From positions 4,216,001 to 4,280,000 of the forward strand of contig NZ_FNSD01000001.1 of NCBI RefSeq assembly GCF_900105625.1: a stretch of 64,000 bases of DNA. Reading direction: 5' to 3'. Under the pieces are notes generated by a model. That model saw only the letters and a list, made by a program, of their open reading frames with translations. It ran no database searches and had not been told where the DNA came from. Shown here piece after piece: positions 2 to 5,994 of this stretch. Source of the DNA: Terriglobus roseus. GTDB lineage: Bacteria > Acidobacteriota > Terriglobia > Terriglobales > Acidobacteriaceae. The translations under genes were made by a program, and so were the position numbers. Each line of letters opens with the position of its first letter. The stretch's first letter is position 1.

Positions 2-1330
2 ATCAACAGCACGCCAACCGTCGGCAGCGCAGGCCTTGCAACCAACCGTGCAAAGTTCCTCCCGGAGCCGCGTGTCGGCCTCGCGTGGAACGTCTCCGGC
101 GATAACAAGACCGCCATCCGCGCTGGCTTTGGCCTGCACCATTCGTTGCTCGACAACCTGGACTATCGCCTCGACCAGGCCGCGCCGTACAACACCACGC
201 TGTCGTACAGCGGCACCACGGTGGCGAACCCGACATCCGGCGCGCCCGGCCTGATCTCGCCGTCCAACGTGCAGCCAGACATCGCAACGCCCACCGTCTA
301 CTCCTACTCGCTGCACATCGAACGCCAGCTTGCCGCGAACCTCTCCGTTACTGTTGGCTACATCGGCTCCCGGGGCACCCACCAGATCCTGTCGTCAAAT
401 CAGAACGAGCCGGCTTCGCAGTCATGCGCCAACAACTGCCCAACAGGCGTGCCCAACGGCACGCTTTACTACCCGACGACCACGCGTGCGAATCCGGCCG
501 TGGCTAACACCACTTCGTGGTCAAGTGGTGGCAGCAGCAACTACAACGGACTGGTGCTGGATGTGCGTCAGAGCCTGCGCAAGGGCCTGACACTGCGGGG
601 CGTGTATACCTTCAGCAAGAATCTTGACAACGGCAGTGCGTGGAATACCAGCGTCTCGGCTAACACGCCCGCCTTTGTCAGCTACCCGAAGAATCCATCG
701 CTCGACTACGGTCCCGCGGCAACTGACGTACGGCAACTTGCAGCGTTCAACGGCAGCTACGATCTGCCCTTCGGCACCAGCGCCAGCAGCAATCCTGTCT
801 TTCGTCGCTCCGTCGGCGGATGGTCCGTGAGCACCATCGTCACGTTGCAGACCGGTCTGCCGTTCACGCCGCAACTCGGCTACAACCCCACCGGCTCCGG
901 CGACACGCGAAATCCCGTCCGTCCCAATCGCAACCCGAACTTCACCGGCAAGCTCTATACCGGCGGCAGCACGGCGCAGCGCGCAGCGAAGTACTTTGAC
1001 GCATCGGCCTTCTCCGCACCCGCCTATGGCACTGTCGGCAATCTTGGACGAGACACGCTGGTATCTCCCGGCTTCGCCAACTGGGATCTGTCGCTGCTGA
1101 AGAACACCCAGGTAAGCGAGCGTCTCAGAGTGCAGTTCCGCGCGGAAGCCTTCAACCTGCTCAACCACACCAACCTGCTCACACCGAACCCGGTCGTCTT
1201 CTCCTCCGGACCGACGCAGGGCACCGCCGCCAACCAGACCGCCGCCGTCGTCGCAAGCCCCACGGCAGGCGTCATCACCGCGGCAGCCACATCACGCCAG
1301 CTCCAATTCGGCGTCAAGGTTCTCTTCTAG
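2..1330 (+). CDS. TonB-dependent receptor, Oar-like (C-terminal part)
   Basis: Partial gene: the reading frame is open from base 2, so the N-terminal plug and any carboxypeptidase-regulatory domain lie outside the window. About 442 residues of outer-membrane beta-barrel are present. They contain the segments PEPRVGLAWN, SLHIERQLAANLSVTVGYIG and RVQFRAEAFNLLNHTNL that I recognise from acidobacterial Oar-type receptors. The protein ends in QFGVKVLF; a terminal Phe after alternating hydrophobics is the usual barrel-assembly signal. The substrate is unknown; the family is usually linked to uptake of large ligands such as glycans or siderophores. A GC-rich hairpin follows the stop. Family call is firm, substrate is not. 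Confidence 0.9.
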   Translation: MNSTPTVGSAGLATNRAKFLPEPRVGLAWNVSGDNKTAIRAGFGLHHSLLDNLDYRLDQAAPYNTTLSYSGTTVANPTSGAPGLISPSNVQPDIATPTVYSYSLHIERQLAANLSVTVGYIGSRGTHQILSSNQNEPASQSCANNCPTGVPNGTLYYPTTTRANPAVANTTSWSSGGSSNYNGLVLDVRQSLRKGLTLRGVYTFSKNLDNGSAWNTSVSANTPAFVSYPKNPSLDYGPAATDVRQLAAFNGSYDLPFGTSASSNPVFRRSVGGWSVSTIVTLQTGLPFTPQLGYNPTGSGDTRNPVRPNRNPNFTGKLYTGGSTAQRAAKYFDASAFSAPAYGTVGNLGRDTLVSPGFANWDLSLLKNTQVSERLRVQFRAEAFNLLNHTNLLTPNPVVFSSGPTQGTAANQTAAVVASPTAGVITAAATSRQLQFGVKVLF

Positions 1331-1350
1331 TCGGAAGCGAAGAAGAGAAA

Positions 1351-1380
1351 GGCCGGTGTGGGGCGACACCCGCACCGGCC
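1351..1380 (+). terminator. Stem-loop after TonB receptor
   Basis: A 12-bp stem (1351-1362 with 1369-1380, one G-U pair) around a 6-nt loop lies 20 bp past the receptor stop. There is no good T-run after it, so it may be a weak terminator or an mRNA-stabilising hairpin. Confidence 0.5.
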
Positions 1381-1555
1381 AACATTTCCATCGACCACAA
1401 GATCGGGTGCTCCACACATACGCAAAGCGGATGTGTGGGTTGCTCGTGAAGCGGAGAGCAGCGGGCCAAAGCCCGCGCAATCCTCGCCCAGGGGAAGCCC
1501 TTCGTGCGCGGAATGAGAAATCAAGCGGCCCAAAGGCCCACGCGAAGGATGCTTT
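1381..1555. other. Intergenic DNA with small inverted repeats
   Basis: No gene is supported here. Two short perfect inverted repeats are visible: CCACACAT at 1412-1419 with ATGTGTGG at 1431-1438, and GCGGGC/GCCCGC at 1461-1476 with a CAAA loop. The composition resembles the palindrome-rich spacers seen near 7.8-8.3 kb. Confidence 0.5.
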
Positions 1556-1584
1556 TTGAATCCGAAGCCCCCGTTTGCTAATCT
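1556..1584 (+). promoter_or_regulatory. Predicted promoter of the cys leader/cysDNH operon
   Basis: A TTGAAT -35-like hexamer (1556-1561) is separated by exactly 17 bp from a TAATCT -10-like hexamer (1579-1584). The predicted start of transcription (about 1590-1592) lies only 5-7 nt before the ATG of the Cys-rich leader at 1597, implying a leaderless or nearly leaderless first ORF. This is a prediction from spacing and hexamer match only. Confidence 0.45.
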
Positions 1585-1596
1585 CAAAGAGCAGAC

Positions 1597-1668
1597 ATGC
1601 GCGCGCCCCTTTCCATCTGCGACTGTTGTCCGGCCGTCCTCACGGCTGTGTGTTGTTGCGCGCGCTAG
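1597..1668 (+). CDS. Cysteine-rich leader peptide of the sulfate-assimilation operon
   Basis: A 23-codon ORF (ATG 1597, TAG 1666-1668) encodes a peptide with 6 Cys out of 23 residues: Cys8, Cys10-Cys11 and the triplet Cys19-Cys20-Cys21. It ends 65 nt before cysD and begins just after a predicted promoter. A small stem (GCCGT/ACGGC, 1633-1646) lies in the codons before the Cys triplet, and a CU-rich tract (1681-1690) with TCCT could pair with the cysD ribosome-binding site AGGA near 1726-1729. I infer that ribosome stalling at Cys codons senses Cys-tRNA and adjusts cysDNH expression. No intrinsic terminator with a U-run is visible between leader and cysD, so control could be translational or Rho-dependent. 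Chance occurrence is possible but unlikely given content and position. Confidence 0.6.
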   Translation: MRAPLSICDCCPAVLTAVCCCAR

Positions 1669-1733
1669 ACTTCCGCTCTGCCTCTCCTCCACCAAACATC
1701 TCAGCGCACGTCCCCATGCACTCATAGGAATCG

Positions 1734-2675
1734 ATGGCCACACTCACTCCATCTCTGCCGCCTGTCACCGCAGCACCACCGCGCCTCAGTCACCTGCGTC
1801 TGCTCGAAGCTGAGAGCATCCAGATCCTGCGCGAGGTCGCCGCCGAGTTTGAAAAGCCGGTCATGCTCTACAGCATCGGCAAGGACTCCTCCGTCATGCT
1901 GCGGCTGGCGCAGAAGGCCTTCTATCCCGGCCCCATTCCGTTCCCGTTGCTGCACATCGACACCGGCTACAAGTTCCGCGAGATGATCGAATTCCGCGAC
2001 AACATGGCGAAGTCCATCGGTGCGGAGCTGCTCGTGTGGCGCAATGAAGAGGCTCTCGCAAACGGCACCAATCCCATCAAGCTCGACACCAAGCGCTGCT
2101 GCGGTCTGCTGAAGACGCAGGCGCTGCTCGACGGTCTGAGCCACTACGGCTTCACCGCGGCCTTCGGTGGCGCTCGCCGCGACGAAGAAAAGTCGCGCGC
2201 AAAGGAACGCATCTACAGCTTCCGCGACACAGCCGGCCAGTGGGATCCGAAGAACCAGCGCCCCGAGCTCTGGAACCTCTACAACGCCCGCATCCACCCA
2301 GGCGAAAGCATTCGCGTCTTCCCGCTCAGCAACTGGACGGAGGTGGATGTGTGGCAGTACATCCACGAAGAAAACATCCCCGTGGTCGATCTCTACTTCG
2401 CGAAGGAGCGGCCAATGTATTTGCGCGGCGACGCGTTGCTGCCCACCGAGCAGGACTTCGTGGCACGCCTTGGTGAGAAGCCCACCATGGTCAAGAGCCG
2501 CCTGCGCTCGCTCGGCTGCAGCCCCTGCACCGGCGCCATTCGCAGCGACGCCGACACCATCCCAAAAATCATCGAAGAGATCCTTGGTTTCCGCTCGTCC
2601 GAACGCGCCAATCGCGTCATCGACCACGACCAGGAAGGCTCCATGGAGATCAAGAAGCGCGAGGGCTACTTCTAA
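1734..2675 (+). CDS. cysD: Sulfate adenylyltransferase subunit 2 (CysD)
   Basis: CysD is the catalytic ATP sulfurylase subunit; with the GTPase CysN it activates sulfate to adenosine 5'-phosphosulfate (APS) in the cytoplasm. The 313-residue protein carries the PP-loop motif SIGKDSS at about residues 47-53, followed by [11 protein letters not shown] and the [21 protein letters not shown] and SLGCSPCTG segments typical of CysD. Its length is close to the family norm. The start at 1734 follows a short AGGA site (1726-1729). The gene is followed after 2 bp by cysN, so they form one transcription unit preceded by the Cys-rich leader at 1597. Confidence 0.97.
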
Positions 2676-2677
2676 AC

Positions 2678-4315
2678 ATGAGCGCTTTGAATAACGATCT
2701 CGTCGAGTTGAAGCTGGACTCCACTTCGCATGCCTCCAACGACCAGGCGGCCAACGGAGCGCCCTCGGGCGAACCCGAGTCCTGGAATCCCAACATTGCG
2801 CTCCACAATCCGCACCTCGGCCAGACACCCGAGCCGGAACCGATTCACGTGTCCGCCGAGTTCGCTGCGAACTTCAACATCAGCGACTACCTCGCGGAAG
2901 AACGCGGCAAGGACCTGCTGCGCTTCTCCACCGCAGGCTCCGTCGATGACGGCAAGTCCACGCTTATCGGCCGCCTGCTCTACGACACGCAATCCGTCTA
3001 CGACGACCAGATCCAGTCCATCGAAGGCAAGGGAACCACCGCGCCCGGTGTGCTCGATCTTGCACTGCTGACCGACGGCCTGCGTGCCGAACGCGAGCAG
3101 GGCATCACTATCGACGTCGCCTATCGCTACTTCAGCACGGCGCGCCGCAAGTTCATCATCGCGGACACCCCCGGCCACGAGCAGTACACGCGCAACATGG
3201 CTACCGGCGCCAGCACGGCTGATGTTGCCGTTGTGCTCGTCGACGCGCGGAAGGGCGTGCTCATCCAGTCGCGCCGCCATGCGTACATCACCGCGTTGCT
3301 CGGCGTGCGGAATGTCATCGTAGCCGTGAACAAGATGGATCTCGTCGATTACAGCGAGGAGGTCTTCGGAAAGATCCAGCAGGACTTCACCAGGTTCTTC
3401 CACGATCTCGACGTCGACGGCAACGACCAGACCACGCTGCACTTCGTCCCGGTGAGCGCACTCGCCGGCGACAACGTCGTCCATAGCAGCAGCAACACTC
3501 CGTGGTATCGCGGCCAGACGCTTCTCGGCCTGCTCGAATCGATTCCGTCCTCGCAGGTCAATGTCGACGCACCCTTCCGCATGGCGGTGCAGCGCGTCAT
3601 TCGTCCCAACCTCGACTTCCGCGGCTTCGCCGGGCAGATCTCCGCAGGCATCATCCGCGTCGGTGACACCATCACCGCACTCCCCAGCGGTAAACACAGC
3701 AAGGTGCAACGCATCGTCACCTTCGATGGCGACCTGCCGGAAGCCTTCGCACCACTCTCCGTCACGCTCACCCTCGAAGACGAGATCGACATCAGTCGCG
3801 GCGACCTGCTCGTCAACACGGCTGAGCAACCCGTCATCGCGAAGGGTTTCACAGCATCGCTCGTGTGGATGGATGAGACACCGCTGGAACTTGGCAAGCG
3901 CTACCTGCTGAAGCAGGGAAGCCGCAGCGTTCCTGCGCAGGTCAGCACACTCGTGCGCACGGTCGATCTGTCAGAAGTGCCCGGCCAGCTAAGCCATCAC
4001 AAAGCTGCGTCGACACTGTCGATGAACGGCATCGGCAACGTCACCGTCGAAGCCCTGCAGCCGCTCGCGTTCGACACCTATGCAGCGAACCGCCACACCG
4101 GCAGCTTCGTCCTCATCGACCTGCAGACCAATGCAACCGTCGCTGCTGGCATGATCCGCAAGGCGGAACTTACAGGCACCCAGGCTGCCGCACAGATCAC
4201 ACGCGACATCATCCTGCACCCCACACACGCACTGCGTCTGCAGGGCAGTGAAGACGCCATCGCAGCGGCCATCGAGGCACTGCGCAGCGCAGGCGCACTC
4301 CGGGAGAACGACTAA
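2678..4315 (+). CDS. cysN: Sulfate adenylyltransferase subunit 1, GTPase (CysN)
   Basis: CysN is the EF-Tu-like GTPase that drives APS formation by CysD. The 545-residue protein shows the G1 P-loop GSVDDGKS at residues 87-94, G3 DTPGHEQY and G4 NKMD, then two beta-barrel domains. It lacks a C-terminal APS kinase domain, so it is CysN and not the NodQ/CysNC fusion. The roughly 65-residue polar N-terminal extension before the GTPase core is longer than in classical CysN and carries no motif I recognise. The stop codon overlaps the cysH start (TAATG at 4313-4317), indicating translational coupling. Confidence 0.96.
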   Translation: MSALNNDLVELKLDSTSHASNDQAANGAPSGEPESWNPNIALHNPHLGQTPEPEPIHVSAEFAANFNISDYLAEERGKDLLRFSTAGSVDDGKSTLIGRLLYDTQSVYDDQIQSIEGKGTTAPGVLDLALLTDGLRAEREQGITIDVAYRYFSTARRKFIIADTPGHEQYTRNMATGASTADVAVVLVDARKGVLIQSRRHAYITALLGVRNVIVAVNKMDLVDYSEEVFGKIQQDFTRFFHDLDVDGNDQTTLHFVPVSALAGDNVVHSSSNTPWYRGQTLLGLLESIPSSQVNVDAPFRMAVQRVIRPNLDFRGFAGQISAGIIRVGDTITALPSGKHSKVQRIVTFDGDLPEAFAPLSVTLTLEDEIDISRGDLLVNTAEQPVIAKGFTASLVWMDETPLELGKRYLLKQGSRSVPAQVSTLVRTVDLSEVPGQLSHHKAASTLSMNGIGNVTVEALQPLAFDTYAANRHTGSFVLIDLQTNATVAAGMIRKAELTGTQAAAQITRDIILHPTHALRLQGSEDAIAAAIEALRSAGALREND

Positions 4316-5157
4316 TGGCAGAGCTTCCCATCAACACCGCTGAAGTCGTTTCGCGCGAACACGAAAAGCAGGTTTTGCGCGCAGAGCGTGAGACCGAGCG
4401 AGCCGGCGGCGCGCCGCTCCCCAGCGTGCCCATCAACGACACCGCAAACCTGCGCCCCGAACTGCTCGAGCAGTTAGCCCATGTGCGTCAAACACTGCGG
4501 GAAGAATTAAGCGCGGTGGGCCCCGATGAGGCCTGCCTCACCTGCAGTTTCCAGGCCGAAGACGTTCTGCTGTTGCACCTCGCGATGGAGCTGCGGCCAG
4601 ACATCCCTGTACTCTTCCTCGACACCGGCTACCACTTCAAAGAGACCTACGAATACCGCGATCGCATCGCCACCGATTGGCACCTGAACCTCACCAACCT
4701 GCTGCCGCGACAGACCGTCCCTCAGCAGGAATCCGAGTTCGGCCTCCTCTACCAGACCGAGCCCAATCGCTGCTGCGGCTTCCGCAAAGTCGAGCCGCTC
4801 TTCGACGCCGTCGCGCAGTACAAGGTCTGGCTCACCGGCCTCCGCCGCGAACAGGCACGCTCGCGCACCGCCCTCAAAGAGATCGACGACTTCGCCGTGA
4901 AGCCCGGCATCATCGTGCGTAAACTCAGCCCCTTCGCGGACTGGACCACGCGCGATGTCTGGCAGCTCTGCGCCCACTTCAACATCCCGCTGCTGCCGCT
5001 CTACGACCTCGGCTACACCAGCATCGGCTGCGAGCCATGTACCACGCTGCCCACCGACCCGAACGATCCTCGTTCCGGCAGATGGGCAGGCAAGAAAGTG
5101 GAGTGCGGCATCCATATCCAGGCCACAGAAGATGGCAATCCGGATGCCTCGCACTAA
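4315..5157 (+). CDS. cysH: Adenylyl-sulfate (APS) reductase, CysH family
   Basis: Reduces activated sulfate to sulfite with thioredoxin. The 280-residue protein has the PAPS/APS reductase core (FLDTGYHFKET; CCGFRKVEPL; TGLRREQARSR), a CEPCT motif and the catalytic C-terminal KVECGIH cysteine. The CC plus CxxC pattern is the [4Fe-4S] ligand set that distinguishes APS reductases from PAPS-specific enzymes. This fits the lack of an APS kinase (cysC) in the operon. An N-terminal extension of about 50 polar residues precedes the core. Translation is coupled to cysN by a 1-bp overlap. Sulfite reductase is not in this window. Confidence 0.94.
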   Translation: MAELPINTAEVVSREHEKQVLRAERETERAGGAPLPSVPINDTANLRPELLEQLAHVRQTLREELSAVGPDEACLTCSFQAEDVLLLHLAMELRPDIPVLFLDTGYHFKETYEYRDRIATDWHLNLTNLLPRQTVPQQESEFGLLYQTEPNRCCGFRKVEPLFDAVAQYKVWLTGLRREQARSRTALKEIDDFAVKPGIIVRKLSPFADWTTRDVWQLCAHFNIPLLPLYDLGYTSIGCEPCTTLPTDPNDPRSGRWAGKKVECGIHIQATEDGNPDASH

Positions 5158-5229: not shown

Positions 5230-5994
5230 ATGCATTACCTTATTGGCTTCATCATCGCGATGTTCATCGCGCTCACCGGCGTAGGCGCCGGCACGATTAC
5301 GACACCGCTTTTGATCCTCTTTCTTGGTGTGCCCACCAGCATCGCCGTCACCACGGGGCTGGTCTTCGCCGCATCCGTGAAGTTACTGCTGGTGCCCACG
5401 CAGATCCTCCGCAAACAGGTCGCGTGGAAGGTGCTCGGCTGGATGTTGCTGGGTGGTCTGCCCGGCGTTCTGCTCGGCTCCTTCTTCCTCGCACACCTCG
5501 TCAGCAAGGGTTCGCAACACTTCATGAACGCCTTGCTGGGCGCGGTGCTGGTGGGCACGGCGATCTACCAGATCTTCTACTCCTTCCGGCCGATCAAGAA
5601 CCCGCGTGAGATCACCCGCGACGCACCCTGGGCCATGCCACTGCTCATGTTTCCTGTCGGTGCAGAGGTTGGTTTTTCCTCGGCCGGTGCGGGCGCGCTG
5701 GGCACTGCGGCTCTGCTCTCACTCACCACGCTGCCACCTGCGCAGGTCGTGGGAACGGACATCCTCTTTGGTTTCCTGGTCGCGGTCATCGGCAGCGGCG
5801 TCCACATGTTCAACGGCGCGCATGACACACAGTTGCTGAAGGAGTTGATTATCGGCGGCATCGGCGGCGTCATTGTCGGAACCGTCTCGGCAAAGTTCAT
5901 CCCGAAGCGCCCGTTGCGCTTCGCGCTGTGGGTCTGGCTGCTTATCATCGGCGTGCAGTTTCTGTACACCAACATGATCAGTGTCGCGAAGTAG
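5230..5994 (+). CDS. TauE/SafE family sulfur-anion permease
   Basis: A 254-residue integral membrane protein with about 7-8 hydrophobic helices. It contains the family signatures GVGAGTITTPLLILFLGVP near the N-terminus and VGFSSAGAGALGTAALLSLT in the middle, corresponding to the two TauE/SafE repeats. The family moves sulfite, sulfoacetate, taurine or other anions. Lying 72 bp downstream of cysH on the same strand and before a strong terminator, it is probably the last gene of the sulfate-assimilation operon. I infer a role in sulfate uptake or sulfite efflux; direction and substrate cannot be read from sequence. The ATG at 5230 has only a weak ribosome-binding site. Confidence 0.88.
   Translation: MHYLIGFIIAMFIALTGVGAGTITTPLLILFLGVPTSIAVTTGLVFAASVKLLLVPTQILRKQVAWKVLGWMLLGGLPGVLLGSFFLAHLVSKGSQHFMNALLGAVLVGTAIYQIFYSFRPIKNPREITRDAPWAMPLLMFPVGAEVGFSSAGAGALGTAALLSLTTLPPAQVVGTDILFGFLVAVIGSGVHMFNGAHDTQLLKELIIGGIGGVIVGTVSAKFIPKRPLRFALWVWLLIIGVQFLYTNMISVAK

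Follow-up and report, generated by a model that had tools for sequence, protein, structure and literature searches.

The cysDNH operon in the stretch of Terriglobus roseus DNA analysed here (the window, 64,000 nt in total) is preceded by a short, cysteine-rich open reading frame (ORF) that begins almost at the predicted 5' end of the transcript. Judged by comparison of sequences, this ORF very probably encodes a cysteine-sensing leader peptide. The complete feature is probably a cysteine-responsive leader-peptide attenuator of cysDNH, for which Rho would be a possible output in the window.

The leader ORF and its promoter in the window

The leader ORF lies at 1597..1668 on the + strand (locus L001), with its ATG at 1597 and its TAG at 1666-1668, as read from the sequence and the ORF list. 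It has 23 codons (MRAPLSICDCCPAVLTAVCCCAR), six of which (codons 8, 10, 11, 19, 20 and 21) are Cys codons, and 65 nt separate its stop from the cysD start at 1734. An earlier note on this DNA had described such a 23-codon ORF with six Cys codons 65 nt before cysD, and its coordinates hold in the sequence and the ORF list. The Cys codons form two groups. The first, at 1618..1629 (+), holds codons 8, 10 and 11 (UGC, UGU, UGU). The second, at 1651..1659 (+), consists of codons 19-21 (UGU UGU UGC) and is the likely stall site. A CC or CCC near the ORF end is also found in the counterparts of L065, L066, L002, L003, L067, L068 and L159.

Behind the leader, all on the + strand, follow cysD for the small subunit of sulfate adenylyltransferase (1734..2675; NCBIfam TIGR02039, 445.9 bits), cysN for the large subunit (2678..4315; TIGR02034, 573.2 bits) and cysH for (phospho)adenylyl-sulfate reductase (4315..5157; NF002537, 225.3 bits). 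A TauE/SafE family permease gene (5230..5994; Pfam PF01925, 126.5 bits), which starts 72 nt after cysH, may belong to the same operon. The Shine-Dalgarno sequence of cysD is the AGGA at 1726..1729 (+).

The promoter that the earlier note placed just before the ATG is present and is conserved in relatives. It consists of the -35 element TTGAAT at 1556..1561 (+) and, after a spacer of 17 nt, the -10 element TAATCT (TANNNT) at 1579..1584 (+), 12 nt before the leader ATG. In the eight group A loci (window included), the -35 element is TTGAAT in seven and TTGAAC in one, and the spacer is always 17 nt. Transcription is predicted from the promoter position to start at 1590..1592 (+), 6-8 nt after the -10 element, which would place the 5' end only about 4-6 nt before the ATG. 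A generic promoter scan of 1300-1900 listed no promoter and missed TTGAAT-N17-TAATCT, because TAATCT fits only three of the six positions of TATAAT and falls under the threshold. The promoter call thus rests on conservation across relatives.

The same arrangement was observed in a hand-curated list of 75 such upstream ORFs (uORFs). TANNNT occurs 4-13 nt before the start, with its end 6-13 nt away, in 59 of them versus 11.1 expected, a count that is partly circular because the -10 element helped to pick the starts. A -35-like hexamer, which was not used in picking the ORFs, accompanies the -10 element at a spacing of 15-19 in 27 of the 75 versus 1.9 expected. A Shine-Dalgarno-like motif precedes the uORF in 10/75 cases, which is the chance level (8.3 expected), and precedes a possible cysD start in 48/75. 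Leaderless genes are predicted to make up 13.3% of genes on average in three acidobacterial genomes (PMC3160421), so that a near-leaderless mode of initiation is plausible here.

Inside the ORF, between both Cys groups, lies a small stem of seven pairs at 1631..1648 (+). The earlier note had offered a stem at 1632-1647 as part of the output; the short pairing does exist, but the output role is unsupported. The scan found one such site versus 0.6 expected by chance, and in the consensus fold of seven group A loci 1/11 pairs was changed on both sides. As a functional element the stem is unproven.

Cysteine ORFs at other cysD loci

Ten ORFs on both strands of the 64-kb window pass the same loose Cys-ORF test, the leader ORF among them. 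The window case alone is therefore unconvincing, and the weight is carried by comparison across genomes. A search for CysD gave matches in 63 of 150 family genomes, at 66 places, in 17 of 19 genus genomes and in 67 of 297 genomes from the phylum. Further loci came from a scan of named genomes, of which the best 80 loci were kept. The test required a -10-like hexamer ending 4-13 nt before an ATG or GTG, an ORF of 8-45 codons with at least three Cys including one CC pair, and a distance of no more than 330 nt between ORF and CysD match. L071, which has no upstream DNA, and the copies L072, L074, L175, L177 and L180 were left out of the counts.

A near-leaderless Cys-rich ORF passes the test at 63/85 family cysD loci, versus 2.4 for dinucleotide shuffles and 2 for the reverse strand. 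When the test was run with each of the other 19 amino acids, no comparable excess was found; the largest was for Arg, with 24 versus 17.0 expected. None of the 42 non-acidobacterial loci pass (shuffles 1.0, reverse strand 2). Among the loci of the phylum sample outside the family, 4/11 pass (shuffles 0, reverse strand 1), of which L168, L171 and L174 have a terminator and L182 does not; L179 and L181 have CxC-type ORFs with a terminator, judged by eye. Beyond the main set, 26 named loci were covered, 24 of them acidobacterial by title, and a Cys ORF with a terminator was found at five (L095, L102, L103, L106 and L109). L112 of the same set has a weak Cys ORF without a terminator, and the other 20, some with little upstream DNA, gave nothing. 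Of 20 further loci, L275 is a positive family member, L276 has an ORF and a terminator far upstream of the CysD match, and 18 gave nothing, some having little upstream DNA (146 nt in L277). Within the phylum, the combination of Cys ORF and terminator also reaches loci of family f24, which are placed by phylum only. Since these share just the phylum with the window, the plan extends past its class.

The near relatives align with the window through promoter and ORF (L065, MRAPSFICDCCPAVLTAVCCCAR; L002, MRACCQCRNCCPAHPVAVCCRVR; L003 and L066 alike), and the aligned leader ORFs of L067 and L068 start with GTG. All six Cys are retained in L065, and Cys 10, 11, 19 and 20 are common to L002, L003 and L066. 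In contrast, no such ORF was found at L004, although its CysD is 92% identical. Conservation in close relatives, which the earlier note had set as a test, mostly holds: it is seen at L065, L002, L003 and L066 and breaks down at L004.

Of the 22 family loci that fail, seven have a Cys ORF lacking a -10 element by the rule, which leaves 15. Two of these fail because another gene comes first: the Cys ORF of L038 lies about 930 nt upstream, ahead of cysH (283.0 bits, NF002537), and that of L036 about 960 nt upstream, ahead of a uroporphyrinogen-III methyltransferase (SUMT) gene (281.3 bits, NF004790). The cysH gene also comes first in L044 (285.6 bits) and L046 (by likeness), where only about 90-135 nt before cysH are covered. 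L070 has a two-Cys ORF (MSRIAQFRCCLRNVEQS). The remaining failing loci, including L004, have no Cys ORF upstream. A plain search of the window's own genome for TGYTGYTGY gave 612 forward and 615 reverse matches; it is unspecific, and its loci (L183-L212) were left out.

The conserved Cys-rich ORF, its near-leaderless position and its link to sulfur operons support the idea, raised in the earlier note, that cysteine is sensed by ribosomes at the Cys codons.

Terminators in relatives and possible output in the window

No intrinsic terminator follows the ORF in the window, as the earlier note had stated for this locus, but this does not apply to the system at large. With a threshold of dG -12 or lower, an intrinsic terminator stands between ORF and cysD at 27/69 family uORF loci, whereas shuffling these regions gives an expectation of 0.9. 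Terminators and C-minus-G values were counted on the 69 family uORFs, which were curated by hand; two of them, L018 and L028, are scored as terminator-less despite weaker visible terminators. Loci with a terminator include L021, L026, L017, L029, L032 and L053, and the same plan of ORF and terminator occurs outside the family in L168, L171, L174, L102, L106, L109, L095 and L103. Paired changes are seen between ACCCACG..CGTGGGT in L021 and ACCCGC..GCGGGT in L024; the consensus fold of this group has 6/32 pairs changed on both sides, yet 29/192 cells are unpaired. Classical attenuation is thus common among the relatives, and the earlier preference for control of translation or Rho access over classical attenuation is not general.

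Whether the 3' part of the ORF could build a classical antiterminator was modelled with a ribosome stalled at whichever Cys codon favoured this most and with folding allowed only as far as the loop of the terminator. Upstream RNA held the terminator's 5' arm with a mean probability of 0.76 under the stalled ribosome versus 0.25 with the ribosome at the stop. Compared with their own shuffles, 14/32 loci fell in the top tenth and 26/32 in the upper half; the shuffle mean, picked in the same way, was 0.65 and so not far below 0.76. When the whole terminator was included and folding was taken to equilibrium, the decrease exceeded 0.3 in 7/32 loci, and most loci were predicted to keep the terminator despite the stalled ribosome, so that the argument requires folding during transcription. 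The modelling gives moderate support to such an antiterminator in relatives. A separate hairpin type, GTCGAA-N4-TTCGAC with variants, occurs in the ORF right after the Cys codons at L012, L014, L016, L079, L081, L082, L085, L013 and L011. Its 3' half can also pair with CACCC further down, which gives a trp-like plan of four segments in which the U tract is poor.

The window differs in the composition of its leader. The RNA between ORF and cysD (1669-1733) has a C fraction of 0.43 and a G fraction of 0.14, and with C minus G at 0.29 it ranks first among the 42 terminator-less family uORF loci. By class, C minus G is 0.133 for these 42 versus 0.056 for loci with a terminator (p 5e-6, with loci that are related and not independent). 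The value of the window's leader is also above those of 19 other leaders of the window, and only 0.31% of non-coding 65-mers reach 0.29. The predicted fold of this leader is no more stable than its shuffles (z -0.4). Its C-rich, G-poor and, by weak predicted folds, weakly structured part at 1669..1725 (+) is a candidate Rho-loading region. A rho gene is present in the 4.8-Mb genome (721.5 bits), so that a C-rich, weakly structured leader and a gene for the factor itself are both found, which is no more than suggestive. The missing terminator together with the most C-rich, G-poor leader suggests Rho; on base composition we regard Rho as the output of the window's leader as an even call. The C-rich leader could also be merely a trait of the lineage.

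From this we infer how the leader would work, including its translation, the stalling, the response to cysteine and the action of Rho. Transcription would begin a few bases before the ATG of the 23-codon ORF, and a ribosome would initiate without a Shine-Dalgarno site. Given an ample supply of charged tRNA-Cys, this ribosome would pass the mostly UGU Cys codons and stop at 1668; the C-rich, weakly structured RNA behind it would then be naked, and transcription would tend to terminate ahead of cysD or within it. If charged tRNA-Cys runs low, the ribosome would stall at the Cys codons just ahead of the C-rich region, keep Rho off and thereby hinder termination, which would allow transcription of the operon. 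Many relatives would instead use the intrinsic terminator as output, opposed by a pairing that involves the 3' part of the ORF. For the window, which is without such a terminator, Rho would be the most likely terminating agent.

The same cysteine-sensing ORF might instead act on translation, if the region around the Shine-Dalgarno sequence of cysD is paired with the ORF or with the CU tract and a stalled ribosome frees the site. In ribosome-free folds of L001, L002 and L003 the 3' end of the ORF does pair with a stretch just before the cysD start, where GCGCAC is common to L001, L002, L003 and L066 (GTGCAC in L065), and mycobacterial cysteine genes are described as being under translation attenuation (PMC13236596). 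However, duplex energies between the 3' part of the ORF and the leader equal those of shuffles (16 loci, z -1.5 to 1.4), the predicted Shine-Dalgarno access differs by no more than 0.05 between stalled ribosome and ribosome at the stop in L001, L065, L002, L003 and L066, and the relatives employ transcription terminators. We consider a translational output unlikely. The CU tract as an anti-Shine-Dalgarno element, which according to the earlier note could mask the cysD AGGA, was rejected on these duplex energies and on the nearly unchanged Shine-Dalgarno access.

Translational coupling, in which ribosomes that finish the ORF at 1668 start again at cysD and arrive there at a rate set by slow Cys codons, would fit the gap of just 65 nt and the gaps of 51-74 nt in several family loci. 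It is quite improbable, as the gaps reach at least 200 nt elsewhere, some with a terminator between (L023, L031 and L047), cysD has its own AGGA, and coupling would lower rather than raise cysD under cysteine shortage.

Codon choice and evolution of the leader peptide

The ORF is better kept than the leader that follows it and than distal upstream DNA in 16/16 pairs of relatives. The values for ORF, leader and distal DNA are 0.92, 0.74 and 0.66 for L001/L065, and 0.96, 0.38 and 0.53 for L161/L162; in some pairs the promoter stretch is as well kept as the ORF. The dN/dS comparison that the earlier note had proposed gave no sign of selection on the whole peptide, as the changes are mostly non-synonymous (2 synonymous versus 11 not in L001/L002). 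It is the Cys codons that are retained.

A strong UGU preference is seen in the Cys leader ORFs of all groups, opposite to the UGC preference of genes. UGU makes up 320/421 Cys codons in the 75 uORFs. In contrast, cysD at the same 75 loci uses UGC for 329/343 and UGU for 14/343 Cys codons, and a wider CysD set, with non-acidobacterial loci and copies included, uses UGC for 724/820. Other pyrimidine-ending codons, taken from 74 of the 75 ORFs, end in T in only 198/773 cases, which gives an odds ratio of 9.3 against the Cys codons. Clustering of the 75 ORFs by DNA similarity gave 42 clusters, with a UGU majority in 39, a UGC majority in one and equality in two. In the window itself, UGU is used at 4/6 leader Cys codons versus 41/201 in its long ORFs. 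One tRNA-Cys with anticodon GCA usually serves both Cys codons, and UGU is then read by wobble. If a single such tRNA is present, wobble reading would let the leader follow charging more sharply. Alternatively, the UGU choice may be set by a demand of RNA structure. The preference can be tested directly and may show how leaders would be tuned to tRNA charging.

The codon data also bear on the proposal that the active agent is the Cys-rich peptide, either as an arrest peptide that senses metal or redox state or as a small thiol protein. Near metal genes, arrest peptides that carry conserved Cys/His have been described (PMC12992588), and the parts beside the Cys codons are alike within clades. 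Across clades, however, it is mainly the Cys runs that are common to the 42 uORF clusters, the choice of UGU works on codons and not on the peptide, and the neighbours are sulfur-assimilation genes, which makes an acting peptide very improbable. A chance ORF in a C/T-rich leader, which the ten passing ORFs in 64 kb would allow, is practically negligible and was rejected for the family taken together on the 63/85 loci versus 2.4 shuffled, the excess of terminators and the ORF similarity above that of the flanks in 16/16 pairs.

Known leader peptides and other possible sulfur targets

Polycysteine leaderless ORFs of mycobacteria were reportedly tested by Canestrari et al. in 2020. Such cysteine-rich leaderless ORFs had been proposed as attenuators by Shell et al. 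in 2015 (PMC4633059), and a 2026 paper terms the mycobacterial mechanism translation attenuation (PMC13236596). The acidobacterial leader resembles these ORFs in its shortness, its clustered Cys codons, its predicted position near the transcript 5' end before sulfur genes and the proposed sensing of cysteine by ribosomes. It has no family model in common with them, and it differs in phylum, in the intrinsic terminator and possible rival pairing of many copies, and in the 5' end of the window, which is predicted to have 4-6 nt rather than none before the start. For Actinobacteria, Seliverstov et al. (2005) describe candidate cys leader peptides with no terminators behind them, and suggest Rho for the mycobacterial ones while calling their own prediction rather weak (PMC1262725). 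The window is likewise without an intrinsic terminator, its Cys codon runs also lie near the stop and Rho is suggested in both cases; in contrast, many acidobacterial copies have terminators (27/69 family loci; PMC1262725 for the comparison).

In trp- and his-type attenuators, a leader peptide with codons for the product amino acid is combined with rival pairing and an intrinsic terminator before the first gene. The acidobacterial relatives share these three elements but differ in reading cysteine and in a promoter-near start without a Shine-Dalgarno sequence, and the window lacks the terminator. The tna leader responds to free tryptophan through an arrest peptide, and ribosome position decides Rho access. 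Ribosome position on a leader peptide is likewise proposed to set Rho access in the window, although here the supply of charged tRNA is the expected signal. In its mode of action the acidobacterial leader, most likely a sensor of cysteine charging, would match the polycysteine ORFs of mycobacteria, and its counterparts in relatives would also match trp/his attenuators. A broader reading, tentative and just short of an even call, is that Acidobacteriota carry an old and patchy cysteine attenuator that reaches past the window's class, with a UGU-selected, near-leaderless peptide and an exchangeable output, either terminator and antiterminator or, at Terriglobus cysD, Rho.

We know of no earlier cysteine leader peptide with an intrinsic terminator. 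A literature search, with most subscription papers outside it, found none with a terminator and no cysteine leader peptide in Acidobacteriota. In the sources consulted, cysteine attenuation is described for mycobacteria plus a few more Actinobacteria, and with no terminator (PMC4633059, PMC1262725, PMC13236596), and Naville and Gautheret (2010) state that almost no predicted attenuator in phyla like Acidobacteria has an associated function. If the proposal is true, a terminator behind a cysteine leader peptide would, to our knowledge, be seen here for the first time, and the loci would offer a natural series for output switching in attenuators. The matched loci with and without a terminator would serve as material for studying how an attenuator output gets replaced. 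It would also give a large, little-studied soil phylum an understood class of attenuators, and would show ribosomes reading cysteine supply in more than one phylum.

Known families were rejected as an explanation. The peptides of the window ORF and ten relatives matched no NCBIfam family at E up to 10, which is a weak test for such very short queries. Riboswitches, T-boxes and other RNA families were rejected as Rfam gave no match in window 1200-2000 up to E 1. At gathering scores, the only Rfam match in 20 loci (including L001, the window's own) was a group II intron RNA in L102, near a cysD locus (RF02001, 51.7 bits, L102:411-577, - strand).

The Cys ORF is not confined to operons with cysD first, since it heads operons with cysH first (L038) or the SUMT gene first (L036). 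In the genus, a gene for a PF01077 reductase (NirA-family nitrite/sulfite) is preceded in five genomes (L213-L217) by MQTxxNxCCC... ORFs, which are followed by GCCCGCG..CGCGGGCTTTG, a terminator-like hairpin as judged by eye. Other Cys ORFs precede the reductase gene in L220 and L227, and a short one in L226. The genus cysD copies L001, L065, L002, L003, L066-L070, L051, L055, L073 and L075-L078 have no terminator at the threshold. Within this one genus the terminator type is therefore seen at the reductase gene and not at the cysD copies checked. In the window's genome the reductase gene sits behind a phoU-like gene (by eye) and has no Cys ORF within 400 nt upstream. Its product matches the NirA-family and nitrite/sulfite reductase models below the cut-off (best 384.6 of 523 bits) and is, from context, likely but not proven to be a sulfite reductase. 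A possible third target is a cysK-like gene: in 5/30 loci of the genus (L244-L247 and L262, one clade), a GTG-started CCC ORF of the VDNTVSNLGCCCVFLAISG type lies 141-157 nt upstream of the match, with no -10 element seen at the right distance. The window's genome has no GTG-started CCC ORF before a cysK-like gene.

Three further observations concern the DNA around the window's leader. A hairpin-like sequence, GGCCGGTG..CACCGGCC, lies at 1351-1380 directly after an outer-membrane barrel gene that ends at 1330, and is perhaps its terminator, though without a T run after it. Between this gene and the promoter, GC-rich palindrome-like blocks (agcgggccaaagcccgcgc) occupy 1440-1545, where L001 and L065 differ; a search for repeats of the pattern gave three matches versus 4.0 expected, and its fixed 4-base spacer misses a copy near 1460. 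Finally, an antisense ORF of 138 codons at 1327-1743 (- strand), with a third-position GC of 0.57, spans the whole leader; it looks spurious but could mislead gene callers.
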